A stretch of 37,320 nucleotides of DNA from a virus, in IMG/VR virus record IMGVR_UViG_3300029286_003653, positions 1 to 37,320 of that record, one strand, 5' to 3'. This document shows, piece after piece, positions 10,978 to 37,320 of this stretch (positions are counted from its first letter, which is position 1; every line of letters starts with the position of its first letter). The notes beneath the pieces are model-generated. The model was not told where the DNA came from and searched no databases. It saw nothing but the letters and a program-made list of their open reading frames with translations. A program made the translations under genes and the position numbers.

Positions 10978-11168
10978 TTTTACGGGTCCTTGGAAGGGGG
11001 TGTCGGCTGCGGGTCAGGCGAGGCGACCGCCTTCAGTGATATTAGATTTTAAAAATGTCGTGTCGTGGTCGTAAAGGGCATTTTATGGGTAAGGGTTGGG
11101 AAACGCTCGGAAAGGCGTCCCCCGTCGTTAAAACAGGGCAAGAACAGGTCAAAAAGGGAGGTATGTCG

Positions 11169-12467
11169 ATGGCAAATATCAATGTAAAACCGGACATTTG
11201 TGATGTCCGAATGTCCGATATAAGACCGGCACCTTATAACCCAAGGGAGATATCCCCGGAATCGTTGGCTGGGTTGCGGCAGTCGCTTGAAAAGTTCGGA
11301 ATGGTTGATCTTCTTGTGATTAATAAACGCAACATGCATATCATTTCAGGACACCAGCGGTTCAAGATTTTGCAGGAGGAGGGTGTTGAGAGCGTTGAGG
11401 CGATTATGGTCGATGTGGATGAAGTAACTGAAATGGCCATGAACGTCACGCTTAATTCGCAGGAGGTCACTGGTCGGTGGACAGCGGCTTTGATTCCGTT
11501 ATTGGAGAAGTTAAGGACAGAAGACGCCGGAGGGTATATTGACCTTCGTATGAAAGAGCTACGCCAGCAGGTAGCGGATTTGGAAATTGAGAACATGGGC
11601 GATGGAAAGACCTTGCCGGATGATATTCCTGAACCACCTAAAGAGGCAATCACAAAAAAAGGTGATTTATGGATCTTGGGTGAGCACCGGCTTCTTTGCG
11701 GCGATAGCACTATCGATGAGGATGTGTCGCGGCTCATGGATGGCCAGAAGGCCGCTTTGTGGGCTACGGATCCGCCATATTGCGTTGACTATACCGGAGC
11801 GAATCGTCCGAACGGCGGGAGGGATTGGTCGAACGTTTACCACGAAATTGATATCCCTGATGCGGTGGATTTCATGCGCAAGTTTCTTACTGTGGGGCTT
11901 AAGCACATTCAGGAAAAGACGGCTTTGTATATGTGGCACGCTTCGAAGCGAAAGTCGGACATCGAGGGCGTGTGCAAAGAGCTGGGTATTCTTATCCATC
12001 AGGAAATCGTTTGGGTTAAACCGTGCGTGATTCTGACCTTTTCATTTTATTCGTGGCGGCATGAGCCGTGCCTTTTGATGTGGGTTAAAGGGCATAAGCC
12101 GGACTATAAACCAAAGAATAAATCTATCGGCAGTGTGTGGACTGTGGGTTTCTTGAGGTCAGGCGATCCGACTACTCCTGAATATCACACTGATGTTTGG
12201 GAACTTGATTGGGAAGGCAAGAAGCGCAATTCCGGACTGGATCATCCTACTGTTAAGCCGACCGAGGTTTTCGCGATTCCTATGCGGGTGCATACGACCC
12301 CGGGTGATATTTGTTATGAACCGTTTAGCGGATCTGGATCGCAGATTATCGCGGGTGAGCGTTTGAATAGGCGCGTGTTTGCAATGGAGTTAGAGCCAGT
12401 CTTTTGTGATGTGGCGGTGCGGCGTTGGGAAGAATTCACTGGGAAGAAGGCAATCTTAAATGGCTGA
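11169..12467 (+). CDS. ParB-like domain fused to DNA methyltransferase (N4/N6 type)
   Basis: This 432-residue enzyme modifies bases in phage DNA. Residues about 10-140 form a ParB/sulfiredoxin-like domain with GHQR at 61-64. A methyltransferase follows with catalytic motif IV DPPY at 201-204 and the AdoMet motif FSGSGS at 386-391. This order (IV, target recognition, I) makes it a beta-class N6-adenine or N4-cytosine methylase. Phages carry this fusion to protect their DNA against host restriction, often beside the terminase. The start at 11169 gives a seven-base gap from GGAGG (11157-11161); ATGs at 11163 and 11055 fit worse. No restriction partner is next to it. The 3' end overlaps the terminase small subunit gene by 8 bp. 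Confidence 0.9.
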   Translation: MANINVKPDICDVRMSDIRPAPYNPREISPESLAGLRQSLEKFGMVDLLVINKRNMHIISGHQRFKILQEEGVESVEAIMVDVDEVTEMAMNVTLNSQEVTGRWTAALIPLLEKLRTEDAGGYIDLRMKELRQQVADLEIENMGDGKTLPDDIPEPPKEAITKKGDLWILGEHRLLCGDSTIDEDVSRLMDGQKAALWATDPPYCVDYTGANRPNGGRDWSNVYHEIDIPDAVDFMRKFLTVGLKHIQEKTALYMWHASKRKSDIEGVCKELGILIHQEIVWVKPCVILTFSFYSWRHEPCLLMWVKGHKPDYKPKNKSIGSVWTVGFLRSGDPTTPEYHTDVWELDWEGKKRNSGLDHPTVKPTEVFAIPMRVHTTPGDICYEPFSGSGSQIIAGERLNRRVFAMELEPVFCDVAVRRWEEFTGKKAILNG

Positions 12468-15334: not shown

Positions 15335-15550
15335 ATGGCCGCGCCGACAAAACAGGAAATGCTCGAAAATGTTGAGAATGCCATCAACGCCAGGATGACT
15401 GGCGGGGCTGTCACGTCATATTCTATCGGCGGAAGAAATCTCCAGTATATAAGCCTTGATGAGCTCTTAAAACTGCGCGGCCAGCTGCGCAGAGAAATCG
15501 CAGGATCAAGCGATACCACCACATACGCAAAGTTCGATAAGCCGTCATGA
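15335..15550 (+). CDS. gpW-like head-tail joining protein
   Basis: This 71-residue protein is of the size and type of lambda gpW, which stabilises the packaged head and joins it to the tail. The pattern is typical: an N-terminal helix (PTKQEMLENVENAINARM), a beta hairpin (VTSYSIGGRNLQYIS) and a second helix (LDELLKLRGQLRREIA). A GAGGGGA ribosome site lies just upstream. Its stop overlaps the portal gene start by four bases, as in lambda where W precedes the portal gene B. Confidence 0.85.
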   Translation: MAAPTKQEMLENVENAINARMTGGAVTSYSIGGRNLQYISLDELLKLRGQLRREIAGSSDTTTYAKFDKPS

Positions 15551-17292
15551 AGACTAAAAATAAATTCTCAGAGAACATAATAACCGCGGTAGACAATATC
15601 GTTTCGTTCTTTTCTCCCAAGGCCGGGTTCAAGCGCAGGATGTACCGGGAGGCAATCAATATTTCGCAGAAGTTCGGCGCTTATAAAGGCGCAAGCAGGG
15701 ATCGTTTAAGATCGTCATGGATTCCCGGAGGGGGCTCAGCAGACCAGGATTTACTTTCAGAACTGGGTGATATTCGGGAGCGCAGCCGTGATTTAAATAG
15801 GAACGACGCGCATGCTGCAGGGATAACTTCTACGATGACAGTAAATGTCATCGGCACAGGCATTAGACCGCAGAGCAGGGTGGATAAGGAAGAACTCGGT
15901 ATAAGCGACGGGTTAACAGAGGAATTCCAAAGAAAAGCCGAAAGGGTATGGAAACGCTGGACTCCTTATGCCGATGCCGGAGAGCGCATGGATTTCTACG
16001 AAATCCAGCAGTTGGTGGACAGACAGATACTTGAGAACGGGGAGGCAATAATCGTTCCTTTAAGGTTAAAGGACAAAGAGAGATCGTACCCATTGGCCCT
16101 GCAGGTGGTTGAGTCAGATAGGCTCAATACCCCGCCCGATAGAAAAAGCGACAAGTCAGTCAGGTCTGGGGTAAGGATAGGCGAAAACGGAGAACCGGTT
16201 TCATACTTTATTCAAAAGACACACCCCGGAGATATCTATCACAGGCAGGCAGAAGAAGCAAGGCAATATGCGGAAATCCAGGCTAAAGATGATCTGGGTA
16301 GAAGAAATATTTTTCATTTGTATTATGTTCTGCGTTCAGGACAGACAAGGGGAGTTCCTTTCTTTGCGCCGGTATTGACATATTTTAAAGATTTAGCCGA
16401 ATATGCCGAGGCAGAGCTTGTGGCCAGCCGTATTGCCGCGTGTTTCTCGCTTTTCATTACATCGGAATCCTCGATGGATGTGGCAGTTAATTCCGCATAC
16501 GAAAGAAACCAGTCCGGGCAGTTAATAGAATCGCTTGAGCCAGGAATGATCAAACACCTGATGCCCGGCGAGACCATCACTTCGTTTAATCCCCAGAGGC
16601 CGAGTGCAACTTTTGAGCCGTTCGTAGACAGGATATTAAAAGCAATATCCGCGGCCTTGGGCCTTCCGTATGAATTAGTGGCAAAAGACTTTTCCAAAAC
16701 GAATTATTCCAGCGCCCGGGCAGCGTTATTGGAAGCCAGGAGATATTTTAAGGTTAGGCAGGAATGGTTCTCACAAAAACTCTGTCAGCCGGTTTGGGAA
16801 ATGCTTTTAGAGGAAGCTTATTTGAAGGGCGATATAGATGCCGCGAACTTCTATGAAAACGGAAGGCCTAAATCAGCTTGGACGAGAGCGCGGTGGATCG
16901 CTCCCGGCTGGTCCTGGGTGGATCCGCTCAAAGAGGTCAAGGCTTCCAGGGAAGCCATCGCTGGAAATATTTCAAGCTTAGCGGACGAAGCGGCCGGGCA
17001 GGGCAAGGACTGGGAGGAGATCTTAGAGCAGAGGGCGCGGGAAGAGCAGAAAAGAAAAGAGCTCAATCTTCCGGAAATGACTGACGGCGCTAAAACTCCT
17101 AAAGACGAGGAAGATGAGGAAGCGAAACAGGAAGAAGAAATCCGTCAGATTCTGGAAGGCGCCGAAGAGGTAACGAAGAGAAATGAGAAACTGAGCAATG
17201 AGCTTGTGAAACTGGAAAACGGCAACAGCATCTTGAAAAAAGAATTATCCGGCATAAAAACCAGGCTCGATGAGGTTTTGATCAATGGATAA
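15547..17292 (+). CDS. Portal protein (lambda gpB family)
   Basis: This protein forms the ring at the unique head vertex through which DNA enters and leaves. The 581-residue protein follows the lambda-type portal pattern: an N-terminal clip/wing part with SRDLNRNDAHAAGITSTMTVNVIGTGIRPQ, the RVWKRWTPYADAGERMDFYEIQQLVDRQILENGEA core, and the stem part with AAISAALGLPYELVAKDFSKTNYSSARAALLEARR. The last 60 residues or so form an acidic coiled coil (EEDEEAKQEEEIRQIL onward), which may contact the next product. It overlaps neighbours by 4 bp upstream and 8 bp downstream, so head genes are translated as a coupled set. Confidence 0.94.
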   Translation: MKTKNKFSENIITAVDNIVSFFSPKAGFKRRMYREAINISQKFGAYKGASRDRLRSSWIPGGGSADQDLLSELGDIRERSRDLNRNDAHAAGITSTMTVNVIGTGIRPQSRVDKEELGISDGLTEEFQRKAERVWKRWTPYADAGERMDFYEIQQLVDRQILENGEAIIVPLRLKDKERSYPLALQVVESDRLNTPPDRKSDKSVRSGVRIGENGEPVSYFIQKTHPGDIYHRQAEEARQYAEIQAKDDLGRRNIFHLYYVLRSGQTRGVPFFAPVLTYFKDLAEYAEAELVASRIAACFSLFITSESSMDVAVNSAYERNQSGQLIESLEPGMIKHLMPGETITSFNPQRPSATFEPFVDRILKAISAALGLPYELVAKDFSKTNYSSARAALLEARRYFKVRQEWFSQKLCQPVWEMLLEEAYLKGDIDAANFYENGRPKSAWTRARWIAPGWSWVDPLKEVKASREAIAGNISSLADEAAGQGKDWEEILEQRAREEQKRKELNLPEMTDGAKTPKDEEDEEAKQEEEIRQILEGAEEVTKRNEKLSNELVKLENGNSILKKELSGIKTRLDEVLING

Positions 17293-18337
17293 GAAAGATA
17301 TCCTTTTAGAAAGAAACAAAATAAGCAGGTTATTGGGTACCGAAACTGAGGACGGTAACTTGGAGAGGAATCTTTTTCTGCTTAAGTCTTTGGATATGCA
17401 GAAAGATATCGCCGGTATCATAAGCAAGGTTTACACGCTGATAAAGCAGGGGCAGGAGGATTGCCAGGGGCTTAAGGATGTCAAAGAAGAGATTCGCGTG
17501 CTCTTAGCTGCCTTGGACAAATACCAGGACGCCTTCGGCAAAGAGGTGAAGGTATTCGTTAGTAATTTTCCGGATGGTGTCAAAGAGGTAAAGGTATCCA
17601 ATACAGAAGATTTCAAGCAGGAACATCCCAAGGAGATAAGAGTTTCTAATTTAAAAGAAATAAAGCCCGAGAAACCTCCCGATGAGATAAGCATCAAGAA
17701 ACCTGTTTGGTATAAAGAATTTGATTTTGACAAGCTGTTCAAGTTTTCCAAAGAGTCAAGCACTGGATTTTTTAATCAAATCAAGGCGGGGATATTCAAC
17801 AGCTTTATTAAGAACGCAAAACCTAAAGAGGCAATACCGGTCAGGTTGGTTACAGAAGACGGGGAAAAGTTTTACCGGGCAGGAAATGTTTTTGTCGGGA
17901 GCGGCGGCGCAGGCGGAACGGATCCTATCGGGATAAAGGATGCATTGGGGGCAAAAATCAACCCTGCCAAAGAAGACGGGGTACTGCAGACAATATCCGA
18001 TGATATAAGAAATGCGCAGCCCAGAAACGTTGCCAAGAAAATTTTAAAGAAAACCATAACGCTTTCATCTTCCGGCATAGTGCATACTCCGGCAGCAAAT
18101 AAAAAGATTAATTTATTCTCGGTTAAATTCTCCTTATCAGCTGATATGAGTGCTGTTTCATTAAGGTGGACTGCTGGCGGAGCAGATTTTGAAAAATATC
18201 TTTCTCCTAAAACAGGCGGACTTTACGGGACAAATAACCACCCGGATTATATCGAAGGCGGTATTGACGAGCCGTTGTACTGCAATATCACCGGCTCAGG
18301 CAATGTCCAGGTAAACATGGATTATTTAGAGATATGA
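17285..18337 (+). CDS. Head-region protein with C-terminal beta domain
   Basis: This is a 350-residue protein of unrecognised family. Residues 1-90 are helical and may form a coiled coil. A repetitive linker follows (KEVKVSNTEDF..., KEIRVSNLKEIKPEKP), then a hydrophobic amphipathic stretch (about 160-178), a beta segment with GEKFYRAGNVFVGSGGAGGTD, and a C-terminal beta domain (about 265-350) resembling, distantly, the single-domain protein at 18554 and both halves of the protein at 18910. Position between portal and protease suggests a virion protein, perhaps a neck or head fibre anchor. It overlaps portal and the next gene by a few bases. Confidence 0.65.
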   Translation: MDKKDILLERNKISRLLGTETEDGNLERNLFLLKSLDMQKDIAGIISKVYTLIKQGQEDCQGLKDVKEEIRVLLAALDKYQDAFGKEVKVFVSNFPDGVKEVKVSNTEDFKQEHPKEIRVSNLKEIKPEKPPDEISIKKPVWYKEFDFDKLFKFSKESSTGFFNQIKAGIFNSFIKNAKPKEAIPVRLVTEDGEKFYRAGNVFVGSGGAGGTDPIGIKDALGAKINPAKEDGVLQTISDDIRNAQPRNVAKKILKKTITLSSSGIVHTPAANKKINLFSVKFSLSADMSAVSLRWTAGGADFEKYLSPKTGGLYGTNNHPDYIEGGIDEPLYCNITGSGNVQVNMDYLEI

Positions 18338-18561
18338 AATATATAGAAGGCGCGGCTAACGACCTAAAGATTAAAGGCATCAGGAAATCAAACGGCGAAT
18401 TTGTCATTGATGCGGAAATGAACAATCAGGCTGAGACAGTCAGGCTGAAAGAGTTTTTGACGGAAGCCCAGATCAGCAAAACAGAAATTCTATTAAGCCA
18501 GGTATTTTACGAGATTCTGCCGGTATTGGCAGAAAAAATAACAAAGGAGACCCATGGCTAA
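18334..18561 (+). CDS. Small head-region protein (75 aa), unknown
   Basis: This 75-residue protein starts with a short beta part (NDLKIKGIRKSNGEFVIDAEM) and continues as a helix (TVRLKEFLTEAQISKTEILLSQVFYEIL). The start overlaps the previous stop as ATGA, and its 3' end overlaps the next gene by 8 bp, so it belongs to the same coupled set. I recognise no family. It could be a chaperone or adaptor for the beta-domain proteins around it. Confidence 0.65.
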   Translation: MKYIEGAANDLKIKGIRKSNGEFVIDAEMNNQAETVRLKEFLTEAQISKTEILLSQVFYEILPVLAEKITKETHG

Positions 18562-18907
18562 CATACAATTCGGAGCAATCACTACTACAACTACGACCGC
18601 AAGGCAGGATATCTTGAATTACACTCCGGGCGCATCTTCAAAATTAAAACTGATTGTGGTGGCCGGGTATTACACCACTTGGTCAGCGACAGAGGCTAAC
18701 CTGGGGACGGTTTACATTGTTGTCGACGGCGTAGATAAGTTTGAGTTCAGAATTCAAAACACAGACAACGACACTTTGGCAGGACTAGTGATACTGCCTT
18801 TCGGAGACGGGATACAGTTTTCAGGGGCTGAGCCGGTTGTAGTAGAAGTTACGCCAGCTTCAACTACTTCGATGCGCTGGACAGCGACGCAGGTCTACGA
18901 CCAATAA
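18554..18907 (+). CDS. Single beta-domain virion-type protein (117 aa)
   Basis: Almost the whole protein is one beta-sandwich-like domain: YTPGASSKLKLIVVAGYY, then a central GTVYIVVDGVDKFEFRIQN, then FGDGIQFSGAEPVVVEVTPAS and a final strand. The same order of words occurs twice in the next protein, which makes them paralogues. The AAAGGAGA ribosome site is good. A structural, surface-exposed role on the head is likely but not shown. It lacks cysteines, signal peptides and enzymatic motifs. Confidence 0.7.
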   Translation: MANIQFGAITTTTTTARQDILNYTPGASSKLKLIVVAGYYTTWSATEANLGTVYIVVDGVDKFEFRIQNTDNDTLAGLVILPFGDGIQFSGAEPVVVEVTPASTTSMRWTATQVYDQ

Positions 18908-18909
18908 AC

Positions 18910-19782
18910 ATGATTGAAAAAAGCACCATAACAATTGATTCGCAGGATAAAGAAGGGCAGATGTTTGGTCTTGACCAGCCGTGGACAACGATTTATCCGC
19001 ACAGGGCTGGTAAGACAGTCATTGGTTCTTATACGGTGCCGGTAAACAAAACCGCGGCATTAAAAGGGATCTGGGTATTCGGCCAATATGCGGACTGCGC
19101 TTATAAAATGGGGCTGGCTTCAGGCGTAATCGGGACAGTTTATTTTCAGGTGGATGCTGTGGCAAAAGCAGAATACCGCATTCAAGCAAATGCAGCTGAC
19201 TTCACTGCTTCGCCTATAACCTGCGATTTTGATATCAGCAGAAGATCCTGGAATATGTATGACGGAGCCACATTTACAGTAGGACAGATAATCAGATTGA
19301 TTGTGTCGCCAGCATCTATCTCCGGCCAAGGATCGCAGCAGGTATTATGGCTGGCCAGCTTCATAGGCAGGGACCCAGTTACGGGAGAATCCATCATTAT
19401 TAAAGCAAGAACAATAACTACTACGAAAGCAGTAAATCAGATAATCATCACTTACACAGTTCCGGCAAATGGTTTTACCTTAAGAAGTCTGTTTCTGCAG
19501 GCCTTCATGGGAGATTATTTCTTAGGCCATGCTCAATTAAGATTGAACGGCTTATTATTCGCCGAGTACCCGCTTTATGACAGCCATTTTCGTGCGGCTC
19601 CAGCCAGGGGTTCGAGAAGTGTATTTCCCTTTTATGACGGGATCTCTTTAAACGCCGGAGATAGATTAGAGGCAAGGGTTGATCCTCCTCTGTCAGTTAA
19701 TCAAAGATTTCATCTTGTTATTTGGGGTACAGAAACAGATACAGGCGCAGCTGTAACAAATATCTTTGTTTTAAGCGATTAA
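18910..19782 (+). CDS. Tandem two-domain beta protein, probable virion surface protein
   Basis: This 290-residue protein is made of two related halves. The first (about 30-155) reads IGSYTVPVNKTAALKGIWVF ... GTVYFQVDAVAKAEYRIQ ... YDGATFTVGQIIRLIVSPAS. The second (about 160-283) reads IITYTVPANGFTLRSLFLQA ... AQLRLNGLLFAEYPLYD ... YDGISLNAGDRLEARVDPPL. Each half matches the single-domain protein upstream. The fold resembles viral attachment or decoration modules. The ATG has no clear ribosome site and follows the previous stop by two bases, so translation probably depends on coupling. The function is inferred from composition and location only. Confidence 0.7.
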   Translation: MIEKSTITIDSQDKEGQMFGLDQPWTTIYPHRAGKTVIGSYTVPVNKTAALKGIWVFGQYADCAYKMGLASGVIGTVYFQVDAVAKAEYRIQANAADFTASPITCDFDISRRSWNMYDGATFTVGQIIRLIVSPASISGQGSQQVLWLASFIGRDPVTGESIIIKARTITTTKAVNQIIITYTVPANGFTLRSLFLQAFMGDYFLGHAQLRLNGLLFAEYPLYDSHFRAAPARGSRSVFPFYDGISLNAGDRLEARVDPPLSVNQRFHLVIWGTETDTGAAVTNIFVLSD

Positions 19783-19807
19783 GACAAAAAAATAGGAGGA
19801 AGGAATT

Positions 19808-20806
19808 ATGCATAATAGCAAAACCGAAAACATACCGAAATCAGCTTTGAGGTTTAAAGAGGAAGAAGTCCCTGTTGAAATTCTCGCCTCGAAGGAAGAC
19901 GGGAAGCCTGATAAACGAAAATTCAGCATGGTCGCCCACAGCGGCAAGGTCATGCTTAACCACTGGCTCTGGGGGAATCTGGCGATAGATTTGTCCGGAG
20001 TTTCAATCGGCCGGGAGAAAAAGCCTGCGTTGCGGGAACATAATTCTAACCGCATCGTCGGCTGGACTGAAGGCATAACAATAGATGAGAAAAGAGGCAT
20101 TATTGCCGACGGGATCTTCTCGGAAAAGACCGAGGACGGCAGGCAGGCCTTAGAGCTTGCCGATGAAGGCTTCCCCTGGCAGGCTTCAATTTACATCCCG
20201 CCTTTGGCAATCGAAAGAGTTAAGGATGGAGAAACAGCCGAGGTCAACGGCCAGAAACTCAAAGGGCCCGGGACGATATTCAGGAAGTCAGTTTTAAGAG
20301 AGGTTTCTTTTTGCGCTTTGGGAGCGGATGAGAATACCTCGGCGAGCGCCCTTAAGGAACGGGGCGAAATAATAGATCTGGATGTGGAGATAATTAAAAA
20401 CAAAAACGAGGAGGTGGAGAAAATGGAACTAGCAGATTTGACATTGGATATGTTAAAGGCTCAAAGGTCAGATTTAACCGGAGCGCTTTTGAAAGAAGGC
20501 AGGGAAAAGGAACGCGAAAGGGTCCTTGCCGTTTTGAAAGAGGCTAAGGGATTTGAAGGGATGGGAGAGCTTACTGTCGAGGCTATAGACAAAGGTGACA
20601 GTGTGGAAGCGGCGGTCGGAAGATTCAAGGACAAAAGGCTCGCCGAGCTGGAAAAGAGCGCGCCTTCAAACTTAGGGCCTGATGCGGATAAAGACCTGTC
20701 TAAAAAACAGAAGACGCATTTAGAGCGCGCCATGGCTTTTAAAGAGGAGCATAACTGCAGCATAACCGAAGCATTAAGGGCTACAGCGGAGAAAAATAAA
20801 CTTTAA
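19808..20806 (+). CDS. Prohead protease fused to scaffold-like domain
   Basis: The N-terminal part (about 10-185) is an HK97-type prohead serine protease that matures the capsid: the catalytic His is in ALREHNSNRIVG (H78), the Ser in GFPWQASIYIPP (S127), and the segment LREVSFCALGADENTSA ends the fold. The C-terminal part (about 200-332) is helical and charged (LKAQRSDLTGALLKEGREKERERVLAVLK) and probably serves as the scaffold that shapes the prohead before being cut away. Such fusions are known in lambda-like phages. It has an AGGAGG ribosome site. No separate scaffold gene is seen. Confidence 0.88.
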   Translation: MHNSKTENIPKSALRFKEEEVPVEILASKEDGKPDKRKFSMVAHSGKVMLNHWLWGNLAIDLSGVSIGREKKPALREHNSNRIVGWTEGITIDEKRGIIADGIFSEKTEDGRQALELADEGFPWQASIYIPPLAIERVKDGETAEVNGQKLKGPGTIFRKSVLREVSFCALGADENTSASALKERGEIIDLDVEIIKNKNEEVEKMELADLTLDMLKAQRSDLTGALLKEGREKERERVLAVLKEAKGFEGMGELTVEAIDKGDSVEAAVGRFKDKRLAELEKSAPSNLGPDADKDLSKKQKTHLERAMAFKEEHNCSITEALRATAEKNKL

Positions 20807-35179: not shown

Positions 35180-35362
35180 ATGGAAGATAGGTGGTATTCG
35201 GTAGACGAAATTGCGAACTACCTTGGAATAAAAAAAGATACTGTTTATAAATGGATTATTCGCAGAGGTCTTCCTGCGCATAAGGCTGGGAAATTGTGGA
35301 AGTTTACTAAAAATGAAATTGATCGTTGGGTTCGTCAAGGATCCGATAAAATTAACGTGTGA
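35180..35362 (+). CDS. Helix-turn-helix protein (excisionase/MerR-like), possible controller of the R-M genes
   Basis: This 60-residue protein is essentially one winged helix-turn-helix of the excisionase family: WYSVDEIANYLGIKKDTVYKWIIRRG followed by PAHKAGKLWKFTKNEIDRW. Such small proteins often stand before methyltransferase genes. Given the dyad over its promoter it may regulate itself and the methylase, as C proteins do in type II systems, though it is not of the usual C-protein family. A role as phage excisionase is the main alternative. The methylase starts 7 bp after its stop. Confidence 0.78.
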   Translation: MEDRWYSVDEIANYLGIKKDTVYKWIIRRGLPAHKAGKLWKFTKNEIDRWVRQGSDKINV

Positions 35363-35369
35363 CAGGCCT

Positions 35370-36410
35370 ATGAATAAAATAGCATCATTAAAACTCCCAC
35401 GAACAAGTACCGTTGGAAGAGGAAAAACCTTTTCCTTAGACACGAAGCCCGACTCTAATGTTTGGAAGAATGATTATGTGACATTATTTCACGGCGATTC
35501 GTTAGATTATTATGCAAAATGGAAAAGTCCAACAGTTATTGTTTCTGATGGCGGCTACGGAATTTTAGGGTTTGAAGGCGACACATCTGATCACATTGGG
35601 CTTCCAGCATGGTATGAACCACATATTAAAGTTTGGGCAGAGCGGGCTTTACCTGAAACAACATTATGGTTTTGGAATTCCGAGATCGGATGGGCTGTCG
35701 TTCATCCAATATTAGAAAAATACGGATGGAGATATCAAAATTGCAACATTTGGAATAAAGGTTTATCTCACATCGCTGGGAATGTAAATACAAAAAGAAT
35801 TAGGCGATTTCCAGTTGTTTCTGAAGTTTGTGTCCAATATGTTTTCGATGTCAGAATTAATGGGATGTTGCTGAAACAGTGGCTGAAGCATGAATGGCAA
35901 CGAACAGGCTTGCCCCTAAGAAAAGCTAACGAGGCTTGTGGTGTTGCCGATGCGGCTGTTAGAAAATATTTAGATCAGGGGCATTTATGGTACTTTCCTC
36001 CCCCTGAGATGTTTGAAAAATTACAAAAATATGCAAATTGCCATGGAGATACAAAAGGTAGGCCTTACTTTTGTATTACGAACGAAGTGCCCGGGACAGT
36101 TCAAGAATGGGAAAAGATGCGTTCAAAATTTAATTGTCCACATGGCGTTACAAATATCTGGGATCGACCCCCTGTGAATGGTGGTGAGAGGATCAAAGCT
36201 CCCTCGGGTAAGGCGGCGCATTTAAATCAGAAACCTATGGATTTGATGACAAGAATTATAAAGGCCTCAAGTGAAGAAGGTGATGTTGTTTGGGAACCTT
36301 TTGGTGGGCTTTTTTCAGCTTCTTATGCGGCGAATAAACTAAAGCGTTACGCTTTTAGTGCAGAGATTGATTCTTCTTATTATCAATATGGTGTTAAGAG
36401 ATTTACTTAA
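35370..36410 (+). CDS. Type II DNA methyltransferase with unusual motif IV
   Basis: This 346-residue methylase probably protects the site cut by the neighbour. Motif IV is SDGGYG at 59-64, in place of the usual DPPYG; related enzymes, as I recall them, have SDGPYG. The AdoMet motif comes late as VWEPFGGLFSAS (about 307-318), so the order is beta class. A middle helix-turn-helix-like part (GLPLRKANEACGVADAAVRKYL) may be part of the target recognition domain. The start at 35370 follows the previous stop; the frame is open further upstream but without support. The 3' end overlaps the endonuclease gene by 8 bp in convergent orientation. Confidence 0.85.
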   Translation: MNKIASLKLPRTSTVGRGKTFSLDTKPDSNVWKNDYVTLFHGDSLDYYAKWKSPTVIVSDGGYGILGFEGDTSDHIGLPAWYEPHIKVWAERALPETTLWFWNSEIGWAVVHPILEKYGWRYQNCNIWNKGLSHIAGNVNTKRIRRFPVVSEVCVQYVFDVRINGMLLKQWLKHEWQRTGLPLRKANEACGVADAAVRKYLDQGHLWYFPPPEMFEKLQKYANCHGDTKGRPYFCITNEVPGTVQEWEKMRSKFNCPHGVTNIWDRPPVNGGERIKAPSGKAAHLNQKPMDLMTRIIKASSEEGDVVWEPFGGLFSASYAANKLKRYAFSAEIDSSYYQYGVKRFT

Positions 36411-37320
36411 TAATCGCGCTACTGTCTTCATCTTTTATTTTAAATCTATTTTCTAGTTCACGCTTTATCATTAACGAATCTTCCGAAGAAAGAATTCTGC
36501 TCCATTCACCAATCGTTTTTCCGTGACAATTAATATTGAGAACTTTTGTTTTGAAATCTTCGATACCTGCATGGACGATTCTGTCCATTTTGGCAAAGTT
36601 CGTATCCAAACGATAGGGGAAGCGCGAGATCAATTCTCTTAATTTCATTTGATACTCTGCCGTAGGCTTGTATTTTTTCCCTTCTACACCCCAGTTGGAA
36701 ACAATTTTCTCCGCTTTATTAAACTGTTCCGGAGTTCCTTGCCACTTGTAGCCATTCGTGTTTGTTTGCTGAAGATTGCGTGTTCGTGAAGATGTATCTT
36801 CTGGCTCCAACACCAAATAATCCGGAGGATTGTGGTAATGAGCATCTCGAGCACTAGAGACAGATTTTCCAGATACAACGCAAACATCTAATATTATTGG
36901 TTTCCCGAAGATTAGCTGTTCGGGTAGCCAAGCGAGAAGCGCAACGTGCGTTTGATCATTTATAAAATGATTTTGGGAATCTTTAAATCGCGCGGTTATC
37001 TCAGTGGCTAATGGGAACCACGCTTTTATTTCAAATCCCGGAGTGGGGGTAATTGAGCCTTGAAAAATTGCATCTGGGAATCCCGGATCCTGCCTTAGCC
37101 ATTTCCCATAGGGGGCAAATTCTTTTTGGTCATTAAGATATTCAACCGTGTTGAATTCGATTAAATTCCCAAGGATAGGAGATAATTTTGATACGACCTT
37201 GCTAAGGTTTACTGCGGCATCTGGAGAAATAGGCTTTGAAACACTCAAAACATCAAATGCATGTCCTTGCATTGATGTTAGGTGCTTTGTCGCAATTTTT
37301 ATTACATCTTGTGTCTTCAT
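36403..37320 (-). CDS. Type II restriction endonuclease (PD-(D/E)xK)
   Basis: This 305-residue protein faces the methylase gene. The nuclease pattern is clear: PD at 82-83 (GFPDAIFQ), then 13 residues, then EIK at 97-99 (GFEIKAWFPLATEITARF). A conserved-looking HYHNPPDYLVLEPEDT and NLQQTNTNGYKWQG follow. Together with the methylase this makes a complete type II system, probably acting as a cargo that defends the lysogen against other phages. The ATG is at the very edge of the window, so a few residues or its promoter may lie outside; it must have its own promoter on that side. Confidence 0.82.
   Translation of the reverse strand: MKTQDVIKIATKHLTSMQGHAFDVLSVSKPISPDAAVNLSKVVSKLSPILGNLIEFNTVEYLNDQKEFAPYGKWLRQDPGFPDAIFQGSITPTPGFEIKAWFPLATEITARFKDSQNHFINDQTHVALLAWLPEQLIFGKPIILDVCVVSGKSVSSARDAHYHNPPDYLVLEPEDTSSRTRNLQQTNTNGYKWQGTPEQFNKAEKIVSNWGVEGKKYKPTAEYQMKLRELISRFPYRLDTNFAKMDRIVHAGIEDFKTKVLNINCHGKTIGEWSRILSSEDSLMIKRELENRFKIKDEDSSAIIK

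Follow-up and report, generated by a model that had tools for sequence, protein, structure and literature searches.

The stretch of DNA analyzed here (the window) comprises all 37,320 nucleotides of IMG/VR virus record IMGVR_UViG_3300029286_003653 and carries, between the genes for the portal and the head maturation protease, a block of four genes that we call A, p75, B, and C (Table 1). The four genes are packed nearly gap-free, and A overlaps the end of the portal gene by 8 bases. An earlier note on this DNA, made from the sequence alone, had placed A, B, and C at 17285, 18554, and 18910, in agreement with our analysis, but had skipped the open reading frame (ORF) of 75 amino acids (aa) at 18334-18561 that encodes p75. 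The ratio of nonsynonymous to synonymous substitutions (dN/dS) relative to homologs is 0.03-0.13 for the block genes, with one p75 comparison being saturated at synonymous sites. These values indicate that A, p75, B, and C are real genes under purifying selection, B being the most constrained.

The record (37.3 kb) is a prophage of the Omnitrophota type and opens with host DNA that includes an NAD synthetase-like gene and a pair of tRNA-Ser genes. Apart from the portal and protease, it includes a serine recombinase-like gene, replication genes, a lambda-type large terminase (phrog_15), a gpW-like adaptor, a small decoration-like protein, the major capsid protein (MCP), and a siphovirus-type tail with a J-type central fiber at the end. 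The tail-tip gene J and two distal proteins occupy the usual tail position. Because relatives with the same genes are found in the Omnitrophota metagenome-assembled genomes (MAGs) RIFCSPHIGHO2_02_FULL_51_18, GWF2_43_52, and DeMMO4_7, the host of the window is most likely a member of this phylum.

The head genes follow the order of the lambda head module (gpB portal, gpC protease, gpD, and gpE), with a gpW-like adaptor, a PF05136 portal, a protease, a decoration-like protein, and an MCP. However, neither the lambda-type phages examined nor 50 sister phages contain an A-like block between portal and protease. Our portal-family search returned 80 loci, 70 of them newly fetched, and 64 of these 70 lack A. 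In the 50 A-less loci with a protease in reach, its start lies between -74 and +391 bases from the end of the portal match, and in annotated phages with related portals (Lily, KLER1-1, and SNW-1) the protease adjoins the portal. The block is thus an addition, as the earlier note had proposed, and searching other prophages recovered it in one clade only, with some 20 relatives that keep the conserved N-terminus of A (residues 1-207, 72-84%). Among 384 Omnitrophota genomes, A was found in three and C in none. The portals of the block carriers are also distinctive: full-length members are 578-584 aa long and end in a heptad-rich coil, whereas most sister portals stop at about 521-541 aa, their tail being short and free of such a coil. 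As the coil is limited to block carriers, the portal tail and the block seem to have arrived together.

Sequence comparisons within the clade distinguish at least three versions of the block, the beta-domain proteins of the window representing one of them. Type I, found in three loci (the window, L001, and L024; one of them incomplete within C), consists of the A beta domain, the 75-aa protein, B, and C. In type II (L004, L005, L007, L008, L015, L016, L022, L023, L035-L037, and G131; several of these contigs stop inside the cassette), A ends in an adaptor domain and is followed by three genes, whose products are a protein of 165 aa, a 399-aa GT4 glycosyltransferase, and a protein of 116 aa. 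This adaptor is also present in type III (L009-L014), where the next proteins have 196, about 361, and about 200 aa. In types II and III, the whole stretch between about codon 210 of A and the protease is replaced, although the main flanking genes remain 70-93% identical. The breakpoints are alike in three DNA alignments of the window (against G131, L022, and G004), with homology resuming at the start of the protease gene. Likewise, the C-terminal part of A, p75, B, and C gave no tblastn match in any of the seven type II and III records compared, in which TerL, the portal, the N-terminal part of A, and the protease are 72-87% identical. For example, G131 has a type II cassette despite sharing with the window 93% identity in the MCP, 91% in the DUF2190-like decoration-like protein, and 83% in the protease. 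In the portal tree, type I is nested in type II, and the window groups with L001 (type I) and G131 (type II) with support of 98/98. J of the window shares 60% identity with that of the type III phages G005 and G004, indicating that the cassette changes and the tail tip is retained. These alignments show the C-terminal domain of A and all genes up to the protease being swapped as one cassette between otherwise similar phages.

Table 1. Features of the block and its flanks in the window
Feature	Position	Strand	Basis or remark
Portal, lambda-type	15547-17292		PF05136, E 1e-106
Portal C-terminal extension, codons 515-581, heptad-repeat coiled coil	17089..17289	+	Block carriers only
Gene A, 350 aa, putative base protein of the structure	17285..18337	+	
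Conserved part of A, residues 1-207: helical N-terminus, VSN-rich stretch, helical neck	17285..17905	+	Alignment; predicted secondary structure, low confidence
Near-invariant linker KPKEAIPVRLVTEDGEKFYRAGNVFVG, directly ahead of the exchange point	17819..17905	+	Alignment of relatives
Exchangeable cassette	17915..19821	.	DNA homology to types II/III ends at 17915-17918, returns at 19788-19821
A linker, residues 213-243 (DPIGI...INPAKED...)	17921..18013	+	Like the N-terminus of the stand-alone fiber adaptor in L058
C-terminal beta domain of A, residues 253-350, type I-specific	18041..18334	+	No detectable kinship to B/C
p75, 75-aa protein, type I-specific	18334..18561	+	Few-base overlaps with A and B
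Gene B, 117 aa, single beta-domain protein	18554..18907	+	dN/dS 0.03-0.05
Gene C, 290 aa, same domain as B in a tandem pair	18910..19782	+	
Domain C1	18970..19374	+	
Domain C2, more divergent	19393..19779	+	
Head maturation protease, right flank of the cassette	19808..20806	+	phrog_3244, E 1e-28

Gene A was described in the earlier note as an anchor, and its two-part conservation fits such a fixed base, the N-terminus being conserved and the C-terminus replaceable. An alignment of 11 sequences gives 73-84% identity to the window over residues 1-207, with hardly any variation in the stretch KPKEAIPVRLVTEDGE(K)FYRAGNV among the aligned relatives. Together, the insertion, the fixed base, and the exchanged tip point to an acquired cassette. 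Beyond the exchange point, the type I linker resembles the adaptor of L058 (DPIGI....INPA.ED), with 11 of 19 residues identical over a short match; tblastn searches with this linker and the C-terminal part of A found no match in phages. For residues 253-350, AlphaFold predicts a beta domain with a pLDDT of about 60-75 over most of its length, and its weak structural matches are jelly-roll folds.

B and the two halves of C belong to a single domain family, with a similarity beyond chance that is strong between B and C1, good between C1 and C2, and weaker between B and C2. Smith-Waterman z-scores (1000 shuffles) are 8.7, 7.3, and 4.85 for these pairs, and the corresponding hhalign E-values are 4.5e-8, 1.4e-3, and 2.8e-3. 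Both measures bear out the earlier proposal of one domain type present once in B and twice in tandem in C, and the shared words listed for it are approximate: YTVP occurs in C1 and C2, but reads YTPG in B; E[YF]RIQ occurs in B and C1, but reads EYPLY in C2; DGI is found in B and C2, and VxPAS in B and C1. By contrast, the reduced copy proposed for the C-terminus of A does not hold, with z-scores of -0.1 (C1), 1.7 (C2), and 2.1 (B) and an hhalign alignment of merely three columns. From the structure models, a fold common to the C-terminal domain of A and to B and C is possible. Fold prediction, suggested as a check, thus yielded a beta domain for A, but the AlphaFold model of C (pLDDT 41; about seven strands per half) is too poor for a fold comparison, and Foldseek matches to this low-confidence model were set aside.

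In types II and III, A ends in a phrog_26903-like adaptor domain, and the next gene begins with M..KFNP.TGKLD. In other phages, the adaptor is mostly a small separate protein. Scanning for the pattern YDYIxLTYV identified 41 stretches; our scans used exact peptide patterns, which distant relatives can escape. Outside the family, the next gene starts with M..K[FL]NP.TGKLD or a close variant at -4 to +2 bases in 22 of 26 loci, compared to a background of 19 among the 418 ORFs that span 80 aa or more in these partly non-independent loci. L060 has a similar gene start that falls outside the strict KFNP.TGKLD pattern. Partners of the adaptor include a tail fiber (phrog_18345), a tailspike/virion structural protein (phrog_4636/6002), and a protein with YadA head repeats, and in Synechococcus phage S-B28 the adaptor gp09 is followed by the tail-fiber protein gp08. 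Outside the family, the pair is often embedded in head gene clusters. As in A, the adaptor of L065 and L083 is the C-terminal part of a larger protein encoded downstream of the portal, and the L065 module lies between portal and MCP. L060 shows the order portal/MuF end, adaptor, 1191-aa protein, protease, and the pair follows the probable MCP in L058, L062, and L086. Because this pair is found with fiber genes in other phages, the type II and III cassettes are best read as a base with an adaptor and a docked fiber. The widespread two-gene module of a YDYIALTYV adaptor with its KFNP.TGKLD fiber gene (contigs L053-L086) is also a candidate for a general adaptor/docking-peptide system of phage fibers. 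In the window, A lacks a YDYIALTYV-type adaptor, its residues 208-350 being unmatched in types II and III, and neither p75 nor B has an M..KFNP.TGKLD start.

We therefore lean toward reading the block as a modular, virion-exposed adhesin or decoration, attached to the head, neck, or tail. A surface or adhesion role is favored since sister lineages have, in the corresponding slot, an adaptor and a fiber-like gene of a kind that accompanies tail fibers elsewhere, and the block has the conserved base and exchangeable distal part of a modular phage adhesin. Any kinship of the distal part to known fibers would be indirect, through the shared adaptor and docking peptide in types II and III; for B and C, no such kinship was found in profile searches or in fold searches with the low-confidence model of C. 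With A as the structural base, the block proteins would be produced alongside the portal, the protease, and the capsid protein, and they would assemble on the head or neck. The last domain of A in types II and III would act as the adaptor on which the product of the next gene docks by its N-terminal peptide M..KFNP.TGKLD. In type I, the beta domain of A together with B and C would replace adaptor and fiber; their position suggests that B and C are alternative distal proteins that would make up the outer part of the structure, probably in contact with carbohydrate or the cell. A cassette swap would then alter surface specificity and leave the tail-tip protein J untouched, and the type II glycosyltransferase may modify the fiber, the capsid, or the host surface. 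Slot content thus favors the surface role that the earlier note envisaged for a head-borne structure, although this structure may sit on the head or on the neck, or be a side tail fiber. A more specific version, in which the portal coiled-coil tail and the base protein were acquired in one step and build a head- or neck-borne organ for host recognition or attachment, separate from the tail and with interchangeable tips of which B and C are one type, is tentative, and we consider it less likely than not.

Several observations weigh against an exposed adhesin. Profile searches of PHROGs, Pfam, and NCBIfam assigned A, p75, B, and C to no named family, and C is absent from all phage and plasmid records searched. 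B and C differ from long trimeric fiber proteins, neither being one. Since the models obtained leave the folds of B and C unsettled and no homology to the second proteins of types II and III was detected, their adhesin role is argued from position. Furthermore, the portal coil and A co-occur in every locus in which both ends are visible, and this coil should, by analogy, lie inside the capsid, because portal C-termini form a crown (residues 453-511 in lambda; PMC10721106) that is displayed on the inner face of the capsid (PMC10359639). The coil to which the earlier note had anchored an external structure is thus real and block-specific, but such anchoring is doubtful with a crown that faces inside. 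A may itself be internal, in part or as a whole; otherwise, the coil would serve another purpose, such as assembly, and A would attach elsewhere.

Of the alternatives, a displaced side tail fiber or neck appendage, that is, an adhesin on the neck or tail merely encoded among head genes, fares best, although we consider it rather unlikely. It would account for the occurrence of the adaptor and KFNP pair in the tail-fiber clusters of cyanopodovirus S-B28 and the similar contigs L053, L072, and L085, and no separate side tail fiber gene was recognized in the window. The fibers of such phages sit near the portal. However, J and two distal proteins are present at the normal tail position, and the module is embedded among head genes in L065, L060, L062, L058, and L086.

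Somewhat less probable still is an internal portal-associated protein, with A binding the portal coil in the procapsid as a lumenal or ejected minor head protein and the variable C-terminus and accessory genes serving as cargo. The slot after the portal is that of gp7 of SPP1 or gpF of Mu, and MuF-type proteins likewise combine a conserved N-terminus with a variable C-terminus right after the portal. Apart from the co-occurrence and the inward-facing crown described above, the overlap of the two genes and their heptad-rich products fit this explanation, with only the portal tail being clearly above shuffled sequences. Yet Pfam and PHROGs searches detected no MuF domain in A, nor any other Pfam match above cut-off, and the variable partners in types II and III are fiber modules rather than effectors. 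Finally, moron-like accessory genes without a virion role (e.g., host-modifying genes carried in the head operon) that became fused to A by chance are very improbable: the type II glycosyltransferase is a frequent cargo gene and most other genes lack a family match, but the exchange always takes in the C-terminus of A, in frame and at one point, the genes are tightly packed, overlapping, and under purifying selection, and the adaptor and fibers have homologs elsewhere.

A modular, exposed adhesin would follow a known principle of receptor-binding proteins (RBPs), in which exchangeable distal modules sit on a conserved N-terminal anchor, as in Klebsiella phage RBPs (PMC6872550) and the branched tailspikes of Ackermannviridae (PMC11414711). 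These share with the block a conserved base, docking or branching segments, and horizontally exchanged distal modules. Unlike in these systems, the base is here a separate gene directly after the portal, within the head cluster, and the exchanged unit consists of the base C-terminus and three more genes, in which no depolymerase or known receptor-binding fold was recognized. Types II and III carry a pair of exactly the S-B28 gp09/gp08 type. The window shares the base A and a linker motif, but as type I it has the A beta domain, p75, B, and C instead of the pair. In the Rhodobacter capsulatus gene transfer agent (RcGTA), head spikes bind cell-surface polysaccharide (PMC7296036, PMC10218006). 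They provide a precedent for head-borne fibers on a siphovirus-like particle, with no sequence relation implied. The RcGTA head spike gene differs from the block in position, and the proteins differ too. For the gene position, the exchange unit, the link to the portal tail, and B and C, no description was found in the literature searched, including that on Omnitrophota phages. If our reading is correct, these phages vary cell contact by swapping one head-cluster cassette rather than the tail tip, and the cassette would be a host-specificity marker for phages of an uncultured phylum. The YDYIALTYV and M..KFNP.TGKLD module would also allow virion fiber genes to be spotted in unannotated phages.

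Several weak database matches were discarded. A match of B to Erwinia phage Ep030 (E 0.6) spans the start of an ORF that by eye is dihydrofolate reductase-like and is attributed to chance. Pfam, NCBIfam, and PHROG matches of A, B, and C (SEP domain, transglycosylase, IHF alpha, and methylmalonyl-CoA mutase) are far under cut-offs or have E-values above 0.01, and the PDB profile matches NDUA11, adiponectin, and LRRC8D were dropped with E-values of 0.17 or worse.

Further observations concern the prophage and its relatives. The host flank (1-2105) contains the NAD synthetase-like gene and the tRNA-Ser genes at 1713-1802 and 2015-2105. On the opposite strand, the serine recombinase gene overlaps the second of these with its 3' end, its reading frame continuing through the tRNA, and this tRNA-Ser region is the probable attachment site. 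Just upstream of the terminase genes, at 11055-12467, lies a gene that by eye encodes a ParB-like and DNA methyltransferase protein and is 67-77% identical across the family. At the record end (35313-37320), a DNA methyltransferase-like gene is convergent with a 305-aa minus-strand ORF, the two possibly forming a prophage-borne restriction-modification pair. The head protease of some type II phages (L007 11071-12393 and L036 4199-5431) has an extra N-terminal domain of ~100 residues that is absent in the window. The GT4-family glycosyltransferase of the type II cassette is found in L007, L022, L023, L036, G131 (L046), and others, and glycosyltransferase-like genes also lie near the adaptor/fiber pair in the unrelated locus L065 (Pfam-supported) and in L062 and L083 (by eye, without a Pfam match), which hints at glycosylation of the fiber or capsid.

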